From Natrinema ejinorense (lineage in GTDB: Archaea > Halobacteriota > Halobacteria > Halobacteriales > Natrialbaceae), in contig NZ_NXNI01000002.1 of NCBI RefSeq assembly GCF_002494345.1, forward strand, positions 124,001-188,000: DNA of 64,000 nt, read 5' to 3'. Shown here one piece after another: positions 21,912 to 28,987 of the stretch (position 1 is its first letter; every line of letters begins with the position of its first letter). The notes below the pieces were generated by a model that saw only the letters and a list, made by a program, of their open reading frames with translations, was not told the DNA's origin and did not search any database. Position numbers and translations under genes: made by a program.

Positions 21912-22656
21912 GGCACTGTCTAGTTCTGGATCACCTCGACTGGCGCTTTTCCATCGAGAGCTTGATGCGGTCTTTGGTGGTTGTAGTAATGCACGAACTG
22001 TTCAAGCCACTCTCGGACGCTTGACCGACTGCCCACCCATGAATTATGGAACCGGTCGATGCGCATTTTGAGGGTATGAAACCACTTTTCGATGAGGTTT
22101 CGGTCGGTATAGTTGACCCGACCGCTCAGTCCGACTCGGGAAAGGGCAGTCCGATAGCCAAATTGATCGACGAGAAACTCAGCCTCGGAGAGATCATGTT
22201 TCTCGCGGAGTTTCTGCAGAAACGCAGCCGCCGAATCGGTGCCATGTCGACTAAACAACGCAACGTCGAGAATTACTTTTGTCTCGATGTCTATTGCAGC
22301 ATACAACCAAGACCACTCGCCGTTGATCTTGACAGCAGTTTCGTCGACAGCGACCCGCGACGGCGTCGCCGTCGGCGGGTCGCATCCACTGTCAGACAGC
22401 CGATGAACCCAGTTCCAAACCGCTCCGTGAGAACGTTCAACGCCTAATTCAGCGAGAATCGTTGTTGTCTCCCGAAGCGAACAACCAGTCTGGTGGAGGC
22501 GGACGGCGAACGCCCTGACGGGCGTCGCCGTCCGCTCGTTCTCCCAAGATTCTTCTAAATCCGTCGCATAGCTCTCGCTGAGCAGGTCTGCGAGCATCTT
22601 AGCCAATTCACTCAACGACCTGCTCATTTCTCAAACTGACGCAACTAGACAGTGCC
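21912..22656. mobile_element. IS6-type insertion sequence, copy 2
   Basis: Ends are GGCACTGTCTAGTT at 21912 and its exact complement AACTAGACAGTGCC at 22643-22656, 745 bases. The flanks GGTCGACG and ATCCTGGA do not match as a target duplication. It is in the same direction as copy 1, and the two bracket the 1.8-kb segment with the nuclease-like and zinc-finger genes. Confidence 0.92.
21920..22627 (-). CDS. IS6-type transposase of copy 2, apparently intact
   Basis: The 235-residue protein has the full N-terminus (MSRSLSELAKMLADLL), a helix-turn-helix around 45-75 and the DDE catalytic set: RVAVDETAVKING, AEFLVDQFGY and RNLIEKWFHTLKMR. It ends YYNHQRPHQALDGKAP, as is normal for the group. IS6 transposases insert by replicative cointegration. 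It fills almost the whole element with short terminal repeats on both sides. Confidence 0.93.
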   Translation of the reverse strand: MSRSLSELAKMLADLLSESYATDLEESWENERTATPVRAFAVRLHQTGCSLRETTTILAELGVERSHGAVWNWVHRLSDSGCDPPTATPSRVAVDETAVKINGEWSWLYAAIDIETKVILDVALFSRHGTDSAAAFLQKLREKHDLSEAEFLVDQFGYRTALSRVGLSGRVNYTDRNLIEKWFHTLKMRIDRFHNSWVGSRSSVREWLEQFVHYYNHQRPHQALDGKAPVEVIQN

Positions 22657-26319: not shown

Positions 26320-26339
26320 ACACCCCTCTATCGATGTGT
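26320..26339 (+). repeat. origin iteron 1
   Basis: Matches the consensus ACACCCCTCTATCGATGTGT exactly. Its core CTATCGATG holds the palindrome ATCGAT. Confidence 0.88.
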
Positions 26340-26358
26340 ACATGCGGAATTACCACAT

Positions 26359-26400
26359 GCAACATGCACACTGCAACATGCACACTGCAACATACACACG
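26359..26400 (+). repeat. 14-bp tandem repeat, three units
   Basis: Three end-to-end copies of GCAACATGCACACT, the last one diverged. It lies between iterons 1 and 2 and may be a spacer or binding site of the origin. Confidence 0.75.
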
Positions 26401-26439
26401 CGACGTACCAGAAGCCACCGACCGACGGGTCCTGACAGG

Positions 26440-26459
26440 ACACCCCTCTATCGATGTGT
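26440..26459 (+). repeat. origin iteron 2
   Basis: Exact match to the 20-base consensus in the forward direction, 120 bases after iteron 1. Confidence 0.88.
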
Positions 26460-26633
26460 CGACTCGATAGATGACTCCCTCGAGACGTGTTCGACAGAGA
26501 TGGTTCGGCCGCTGGAAACCATACTGGCGGATACCGACGAACTGCGGGAAGAAGGAAGGATTGACGAACTGGAGAGAACTCCGAGACGGAGTAGTCACGA
26601 TGAACAAAAAGGAGATGGGGGAAGGGGAGACAG

Positions 26634-26653
26634 ACACCCCTCTATCGATGTGT
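26634..26653 (+). repeat. origin iteron 3
   Basis: Exact match to the consensus, forward direction, 194 bases after iteron 2. Confidence 0.88.
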
Positions 26654-26813
26654 TCGAGAGCACGAGGGTGAGGGGGGTACGCGGCGGAGACGAACGACGG
26701 AGAAGGCGACTATCGAGGGATTTCACGACGGAGAGACGATAAGAGAGCTAATCACTGGAACTCGGTCAGCCTCCTTTCCCTTCCTTCTTCTAGCTTTCTA
26801 GAAACACACTCAC

Positions 26814-26833
26814 ACACACCTCTATCGATGTGT
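26814..26833 (+). repeat. origin iteron 4
   Basis: Matches the consensus with one change (ACACACC for ACACCCC). It lies at the edge of the AT-richer stretch. Confidence 0.85.
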
Positions 26834-27013
26834 TCGATGTGTTCCATCCTGGTTTTCAATCCATTATCTCGTCATCCTCAAATATGAGACGCCTCTCAAC
26901 TCGAGAAACGCCATAAACCATCGGTCTATGACGCTCACTACCCGGAATCTCTGTGTCATCTGAAGAATCAGCCGATCGATCGACATTGTCTCCCCTCTCC
27001 ATCCCCAGATAAA

Positions 27014-27033
27014 ACACATCGATAGAGGGGTGT
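27014..27033 (-). repeat. origin iteron 5, inverted
   Basis: Exact consensus on the minus strand (ACACATCGATAGAGGGGTGT on the plus strand). The orientation change lies between iterons 4 and 5, over the AT-rich part, as expected for origin recognition boxes that flank an unwinding element. Confidence 0.88.
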
Positions 27034-27060
27034 CTGTCTCACCCGGGCCGCTTATCGCTA

Positions 27061-27120
27061 CGCCGGTTACCGCCCATTGTCACGCCGGTTACCGCCCACC
27101 GCCACGCCGGTCACTGCCAC
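27061..27120 (+). repeat. 22-bp GC-rich tandem repeat, about 2.7 units
   Basis: Units CGCCGGTTACCGCCCA plus a six-base tail repeat at 27061, 27083 and 27105 (the last diverged). They lie between iterons 5 and 6 on the gene side of the origin. Confidence 0.75.
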
Positions 27121-27209
27121 AACACTTCGTCGGCCGTCGTTACTAGCACGGCTCCACCGCTCGGTAATCGTGTGGAATTGGTACTGCAAATCCAGTTAAT
27201 CGGGGAAAT

Positions 27210-27228
27210 ACACATCGATAGAGGTGGC
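27210..27228 (-). repeat. origin iteron 6, partial and inverted
   Basis: ACACATCGATAGAGGTGG matches the inverted consensus in its first 14 bases. It ends about 23 bases before the start of the initiator gene, so it may also act as an autoregulatory site. Confidence 0.75.
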
Positions 27229-27250: not shown

Positions 27251-28690
27251 ATGGACCATCGTATGGACGACTTCGACGATCCTCGAGACGAGGCGGGGAG
27301 ATCGAAGGATGAACCGATGGAGCAGGCTACCTCCTCGTCGGATTCTCCCGGGTCCGAGCCGTCTTCGTCTCCGAGTGAATCCGTGCCGAACGGCGAATCT
27401 CGATCGATCGAGGACATGTTGCTGGAGTTCGATCAACAGGAGGGACTCATTCGTGACCGGTCGCTTCTCGACCCGAACCACATCGTCGAGGAAGATCGGA
27501 TCGTCGGTCGCGACGCCCAACTCCAGGAAGTGACCAAGATGCTTCGGGTTGCTCTCGGCGACAACCGGCCGCCGAACCTCTTTCTCTACGGGCCTTCGGG
27601 CACCGGCAAATCCCTCATCACGAAAGCCGTGTGTAAGAACATTAGCCAGATCTGTGAGACACGTGACATCCAGTTCGGGACGATCGAAGTCAACTGCCAG
27701 GACCTCGATACGCTCGGCGTTGCCGTCTACGAACTAGCGAGTCAGGCTGCGGACGAGGCTGACGTTGCCGTTGAAGTACCGAAACACGGCGTCGCGACGA
27801 AAGAAAAGTGGGACGAACTCTATCGCATCGTCAACGAGAACTTCGATTCGGCGGTATTCGTCCTTGACGAACTCGACATGCTCGTCGGTCGACGAGACAA
27901 ACAGGAGCCGGCGTTCTCTCGACTTCTCTATCAACTCTCTCGAGCCGGAGCCAACAACGAACTCACCGCGTATATTTCGGTCGTCGCGATCTCGAACGAT
28001 ACGAAAATGATGGAATCCGTGGGGAGCCGTGCCTTGAGTTCGTTTACGCCCGAGGACGTCCACTTCGACGACTACGATGCGAACCAACTGCAGTCGATCC
28101 TCCGTCGCCGTCGGGATGCGTTCTACGAGGACGTTCTCGAGGAGGACGTGATCCCGTTGGCGGCGGCCTTCGCGGCACAGACCCACGGCGATGCTCGTAA
28201 GGCGATCGATCTCATGCGTGTCGCCGGCGAACTCGCGGAACGCGAAGGCGACGAGCACGTCCGTGAGGAACACGTTCGCGAGGCCCAGGACAAAGTCGAG
28301 AAAAACCGGGTCCTCGAGGTCGTTCGTGGCATCAGTACACAAAAGAAGCTCTGTCTCTACGCGACGGCCGCCGTTGCTGCGGAGACGGACGACGAATGCG
28401 CACGGAGCACGACCGGGTATCGTGTGTATCAATACCTCACTGACGTCATCGACGCCGACCAATATCACCAGGAAACCTACGTCAACAAGATGAAAGAGAT
28501 GACGACCTACTCGCTCGTCGACTTCGAACGACGGAGTCACGGCCCCAGTTCCGGAATGTTTCTCGAGTTTCAGTTCGGCGAACGACCCGAAACCATTCTC
28601 GAAACGCTTCGGGAAGATTCGCGTATCGAGATGGTCTCTACGAGTGAAGTGACGAGCGTCGTCAAAGCACAGGTTCGAAACGAGACGTAG
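27251..28690 (+). CDS. orc1: Orc1/Cdc6 replication initiator
   Basis: The protein of about 479 residues starts with a 60-residue acidic Ser/Glu/Pro-rich tail. The AAA+ domain follows: Walker A YGPSGTGKSLITKAV (about 117), Walker B AVFVLDELDMLVGRRD (about 205), sensor 1 ISVVAISNDTKM and sensor 2 HGDARKAIDLMRVAGELAE. A winged helix ends it (EMTTYSLVDFERRSHGPSSGMFLEF). It binds iterons in its own upstream region and loads the replicative helicase. Starts at 27251 (MDHRMDDFDD) and 27263 are both plausible; upstream codons would read through iteron 6. The acidic tail makes it a typical plasmid-borne Orc. Confidence 0.95.
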   Translation: MDHRMDDFDDPRDEAGRSKDEPMEQATSSSDSPGSEPSSSPSESVPNGESRSIEDMLLEFDQQEGLIRDRSLLDPNHIVEEDRIVGRDAQLQEVTKMLRVALGDNRPPNLFLYGPSGTGKSLITKAVCKNISQICETRDIQFGTIEVNCQDLDTLGVAVYELASQAADEADVAVEVPKHGVATKEKWDELYRIVNENFDSAVFVLDELDMLVGRRDKQEPAFSRLLYQLSRAGANNELTAYISVVAISNDTKMMESVGSRALSSFTPEDVHFDDYDANQLQSILRRRRDAFYEDVLEEDVIPLAAAFAAQTHGDARKAIDLMRVAGELAEREGDEHVREEHVREAQDKVEKNRVLEVVRGISTQKKLCLYATAAVAAETDDECARSTTGYRVYQYLTDVIDADQYHQETYVNKMKEMTTYSLVDFERRSHGPSSGMFLEFQFGERPETILETLREDSRIEMVSTSEVTSVVKAQVRNET

Positions 28691-28814: not shown

Positions 28815-28987
28815 ACACACCGTTATCGATGTGTATATACCGTTAATAGCGGCTACAACGGCAAAAATAGTAAACCACCGAAAGACATTCTCTGCAGGTT
28901 TAACGCTGTTTATTATTGGGCATCCGACCGTCTCATCTTCCGATGTGTCTCAATTATTGAGACCGGGAGACACCTCTATCGAAGTGT
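28815..28987 (+). repeat. two diverged origin iterons downstream of orc1
   Basis: Copies at 28815-28834 and 28970-28987 keep the TATCGAtGTGT half of the origin iteron but differ in several bases. Their presence on both sides of the gene suggests the origin reaches across it, or that a segment was duplicated and has decayed. Confidence 0.6.

Follow-up and report, generated by a model that had tools for sequence, protein, structure and literature searches.

The repeats that surround the orc1 gene in the DNA analysed here are, to judge from their sequence, initiator-binding boxes (ORBs) of what appears to be an ordinary haloarchaeal plasmid origin, one whose type has been catalogued before. Its central part, made of a conserved box and a purine tract, has flipped repeatedly between the flanking boxes in evolution, as a comparison of about 70 relatives shows; for the window itself a flip is probable. 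The window is the whole stretch of 64,000 nucleotides, corresponding to positions 124001-188000 of the 415,920-bp contig C2 of Natrinema ejinorense, whose genome of 4.48 Mb consists of three contigs. The features discussed below are collected in Table 1.

Table 1. Coordinates of the origin features and of the initiator gene in the window
Feature	Position	Strand	Remark
ORB, left arm, exact 20-mer	26320..26339	+	motif match
ORB, left arm, exact 20-mer	26440..26459	+	motif match
ORB, left arm, left flanking box, exact 20-mer	26634..26653	+	presumed inversion endpoint; mapped in relatives
Composite element (low to high: purine tract, CTAG palindrome, ACACACTCACACAC spacer, ORB, tandem half-ORB)	about 26775..26844	-
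Central ORB, last forward copy, 1 mismatch to 20-mer	26814..26833	+
Low-stability 60-bp stretch, top 0.9% of window	26828..26887	.	candidate unwinding region
Tandem half-ORB TCGATGTGT	26834..26842	+	abuts central ORB
ORB, right arm, right flanking box, exact 20-mer	27014..27033	-	presumed inversion endpoint
Degenerate half-ORB ACACTTCGTCG	27122..27132	-
Promoter-proximal ORB ACACATCGATAGAGGTG	27205..27226	-	about 34 nt before likely orc1 start
orc1/cdc6 initiator gene	27263..28690	+	AAA+, Cdc6 lid, winged helix
Diverged downstream ORB	28815..28834	+	2 mismatches in 15-nt core
Diverged downstream ORB	28968..28987	+	1 mismatch in 15-nt core

Repeat set and initiator gene

A motif scan confirmed the arrangement given in the preliminary description, namely four forward and then two inverted copies before orc1 (six boxes upstream) and two diverged copies after it. 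The 15-nt core of the box, CCTCTATCGATGTGT, is found without mismatch at 26325+, 26445+, 26639+, 26819+, 27014- and 27210-, and in its diverged form downstream of the gene at 28820+ and 28973+. With up to 3 mismatches allowed, the window holds 10 matches where 2.1 are expected, a number reached by none of 100 shuffles, and all 6 exact copies present in the genome, together with the sole copy bearing 1 mismatch, fall at the orc1 locus. The 20-mer initially taken as the repeat unit is exact at four sites only; the copy at 26814 has one mismatch and that at 27210 is shortened. Read on the opposite strand, the 20-mer becomes (GA)ACACATCGATAGAGGGGTGT and displays the haloarchaeal G-string at its end. 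This string is GGGG in 4 of the 6 upstream copies and only GG in the 2 others, and it is kept in the family logo. The G-strings of the flanking boxes face outward, the left boxes being opposed to the right ones. In Natrinema relatives, the half-box at 27122 keeps the same spacing to orc1 (mostly -278 to -281), and a half-site similar to it exists somewhere in the corresponding region of 55 of 69 loci.

Several other features were noted in this part of the window. A 14-bp repeat, TGCAACATGCACAC, is present in three tandem copies at 26358-26399 and is absent from relatives, and a 22-bp repeat, also in three tandem copies and unconserved in relatives, lies beside the right flanking box at 27048-27113. 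A short perfect palindrome, GTCTCAATTATTGAGAC, is located between the downstream boxes at 28947-28963. An open reading frame resembling a transposase (DDE type by eye) extends from 21920 to 22627; the origin begins about 3.7 kb further downstream.

The orc1 product contains the Pfam domains AAA, Cdc6_lid and Cdc6_C, and its relatives of solved structure include the Orc1 proteins 2v1u and 2qby_A (E < 1e-44). The likely start is the ATG at 27263, which is the start annotated in N. salinisoli; GTG 27224 and ATG 27251 are the alternatives. The last repeat, thought at first to almost touch the initiator start, touches only the unlikely GTG and leaves the gap given in Table 1 before the likely ATG. 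No other full-length Orc is encoded on C2, the remaining members being chromosomal, apart from a weak partial match on C3. The genome has four further orc paralogue loci, of which three carry other ORBs and one has none that could be found; at up to 2 mismatches, zero copies of the present motif were detected at any of them. The ORBs of the chromosomal loci L010, L011 and L012 (TTACAAACGCGACGGGGGTGTGTC, TTTCACCGGAAACACGGTGTG and ATACAGCGGCACCGAGGGGTGTGT, respectively) have the G/T-rich end in common with the 20-mer and differ from it in the other half. The boxes of L010, L012 and the window, which belong to different families of one genome, end alike in GGGGTGT and differ in the remaining half. 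Such a comparison suggests a modular box, with a common end and a family-variable half. To our knowledge, haloarchaeal Orc families as a rule have ORBs of their own.

Association of the boxes with the initiator in relatives

Relatives were retrieved from species genomes, yielding 72 loci. The motif adjoins nearly all of 71 related orc genes from more than 20 genera, and at 83-95% orc1 identity it is located on both sides of the gene in nearly all cases. In counts drawn from 125 genomes of the family, at least 4 motif copies are present in 35 of the 37 genomes that have a close orc1 and in 1 of the 81 that lack it (P = 2e-26). The link between the 20-mer and orc1 homologues, for which the preliminary description called for a search, is found across many genera, and the view that these repeats are of the origin type and belong with the adjacent orc1 was borne out, the ORB sequence being conserved within Orc families and distinct between them. 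A genome of the same species (G060) possesses neither orc1 nor boxes. A single upstream orientation switch is observed in 49 of 50 close loci. Sister orc genes (about 70% identity) are accompanied by a related box, CTATCGATTTGTTC, with downstream boxes in the opposite direction, and their Orc differs from that of the close family at various residues, some of them in the winged helix. The downstream boxes, two and diverged in the window, usually number 2 to 5 in relatives. The motif can also serve to type haloarchaeal plasmids of this widespread class.

Individual loci depart from this layout. In Halorubrum (L045, L037 and L054), the downstream arrays are regularly spaced at 40-42 bp; the spacing in the sister family is about 47 or 53 bp, in the opposite direction. 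Locus L165 of genome G021, an orc1 relative at 82%, has no boxes upstream and none nearby, and L036, a relative at 88%, lacks the upstream boxes and has one copy left downstream. Three boxes clustered together, with no orc1 of the family in the vicinity, were seen in L166 (G065:C2:271630-271821) and L167 (G100:C2:23456-23657); these are possibly remnants or origins served in trans. A search of viral contigs and phage records returned no relative.

Central composite element

In each origin, one box located at the orientation switch belongs to a composite element of about 75 nt, in which a tandem half-box, the box, the GT-rich spacer GTGTGTGAGTGT, often a CTAG palindrome, and a purine tract follow each other in this order (GAACACATCGAACACATCGATAGAGGGGTGTGTGAGTGT, often then TTCTAGAAAGCTAGAAGAAGA and the purine tract). 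The two flanking boxes are each some 165-180 bp away. Of the 93 boxes with a tandem half-site, 50 are followed by a purine tract, as are 2 of the 252 boxes without (P = 1e-31), both criteria having been picked after the pattern was seen and tested against each other. In this test the half-site served as a criterion independent of the tract, a first version using a strict threshold having had a low hit rate. The sister family has its own version of the element at one box, which is CTAG-rich and then followed by AGAAGAAAGAAG. In locus L201 (G015:C7), two boxes with the features of the central element, both forward, occur in one origin.

The orientation switch had been placed at an AT-rich part. 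The switch is real; its site is the central composite box, whose orientation varies among relatives, and the AT signal is weak. Among 60-bp stretches, stability in the window is lowest at 26828 and at 28863, the latter site being downstream of orc1. A simple AT peak was rejected as a picture of the unwinding region, the gap at 26834-27013 having 52.8% AT and only a modest enrichment.

Probable inversion of the origin core

The orientation of the element is minus at about 50 loci and plus at 14-16. The box which it contains is the last forward copy in the window and the first inverted copy in most relatives. When measured in the frame of the element itself, the distances to the flanking boxes agree between the two orientations; examples are the values of 179/165 for Natrialbaceae and 167-168/174 for Halorubrum. 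On the orc1 tree, parsimony requires at least 8 orientation changes, some of which separate well-supported neighbours (L025 from L193, and L199 within L024 and L027-L029); duplicate loci from different collections were dropped, as far as recognised, before the tree and the tract test. L199 and L028 form a close pair: direct identity is 91% from the gene to -334, a block of 448 nt bounded by the two flanking inverted ORBs is then 80% identical in inverted orientation only, and direct identity (81%) resumes beyond it. Exchange between the flanking boxes, inverting what lies between them, is the simplest reading of the sequences. The two orientations might instead have arisen by independent sequence turnover, as the scarcity of alignable core sequence outside the composite element in most pairs could indicate; yet the block shared by L199 and L028 in inverted orientation stops at the flanking ORBs, direct identity is found on either side of it, and the distances to the flanking boxes fit an inverted frame, which makes turnover very unlikely. 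For the window core, a flip is probable; it is indicated by the composite element together with some short inverted matches, the remaining core sequence having diverged. A limited search of the open literature found no earlier description of such an inversion.

A more tentative proposal, which we consider possible and rather less than probable, is that the flanking inverted ORBs enclose an invertible core whose opening element is specific to the Orc and consists of an ORB with a purine tract in fixed polarity, an archaeal counterpart in logic to the ucm of Sulfolobus or the DnaA-trio of bacteria, and that this core may still flip in living populations. Little is known about how archaeal initiators choose the opening site outside oriC1. 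A conserved element whose polarity is fixed with respect to one ORB, within an origin that tolerates inversion of the core, makes it possible to ask directly whether opening depends on a fixed direction with respect to the initiator gene or requires only the central box and its tract.

Proposed mechanism and alternative explanations

Taken as a whole, the data are best explained by an Orc1/Cdc6-dependent origin of the 416-kb replicon, with ORBs bound by the adjacent Orc1 and a repeatedly inverted central core; on the evidence of the sequences, we regard this reading as very probable. The 20-mers are predicted to be bound by the Orc1 encoded alongside; as in known Orc1-ORB complexes, its AAA+ domain would contact the G-string half of the box, and its winged helix would recognize the variable half, ACACATCGATAG. 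The composite element, midway between the flanking boxes, would be the core at which Orc1 nucleates opening and MCM is loaded. Its purine tract would offer a T-rich complementary strand; as an analogy, the Orc1 of A. pernix prefers T-rich single strands (PMC8287685). Through the promoter-proximal box, Orc1 probably represses its own gene, and the downstream boxes probably titrate Orc1, by analogy with the oriC2D of H. hispanica (PMC3936714). Among relatives the core has inverted repeatedly by exchange between the flanking inverted ORBs, and the same is probable for the window; an event of this kind does not alter the outer boxes, so that the origin keeps its symmetry.

If the boxes served mainly as operators and titration sites controlling the supply of orc1, the replicon would start elsewhere. 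The position of one box next to the promoter, the presence of others downstream of the gene and the lack of a GC-skew signal at the site would agree with such a role, as would the finding (PMC3528665) that some predicted haloarchaeal ORB regions have no ARS activity. The range of the cumulative GC skew of the replicon does not exceed that of block shuffles, its nearest extremum being 9.8 kb away (P about 0.1), and neither the AT skew of the replicon nor the skew of two complete relatives located the origin. Nevertheless, orc1 encodes the sole full-length Orc of the contig, and boxes reaching 900 nt upstream, with a conserved inverted layout and core, go beyond the needs of an operator; a mainly regulatory role is judged very unlikely. 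The regular spacing of 40-42 bp in the downstream arrays of some relatives could also recall a partition centromere recognized by a ParB-like protein, orc1 being merely adjacent. This explanation is extremely improbable: no par-like product is annotated beside the gene in the three plasmids inspected, none was recognized by eye among the listed open reading frames of the window, and the motif tracks orc1 across genera and changes in sequence with the Orc family.

Comparison with known origins

The preliminary description regarded the repeat family as foreign to described haloarchaeal origins, which proved incorrect. A total of 102 ORB origins were predicted in 15 haloarchaea by Wu et al. 2012 (PMC3528665), according to whom the plasmid pL131 of N. 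pharaonis has one orc/cdc6 and one predicted ORB origin. The pL131 orc1 is about 88% identical to that of the window and is flanked by 9 motif copies, 8 of them exact. Because the single orc of pL131 has this family and motif, the 20-mer box is almost certainly among the origins listed in that study. The TAACAGCGG ORB which it reports was not found in the window origin or in pHLAC01, and a text search of the literature for the motif produced chance matches only. No family member with an experimentally tested origin was encountered: the tested model species H. volcanii, H. mediterranei and H. hispanica are absent from the 72 loci, and H. salinarum is represented by a sister-family gene only.

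The window origin resembles the haloarchaeal orc/cdc6 origins of PMC3528665 by its G-string ORBs, inverted layout, own orc/cdc6 and boxes on both sides; the composite central element and its inversion are unmentioned in that main text. It also resembles the oriC2-cdc6E of Haloarcula hispanica with its oriC2D (PMC3936714), where the origin lies upstream and an ORB cluster, shown to be a negative regulator (Wu et al. 2014), downstream of the initiator gene. The Orc family is however different, and 11 downstream boxes are present there versus 2 here. Outward G-strings of the flanking boxes apparently exist likewise in the H. hispanica oriC1, to judge from the legend of Figure 5 in PMC3936714. Finally, the oriC1 of Sulfolobus has a conserved motif midway between inverted ORBs, the ucm, which is not an ORB and is essential for firing (PMC12141716); it differs in sequence and is bound by UBP, whereas the central element described here, seen in either orientation among relatives, includes an ORB together with a purine tract.
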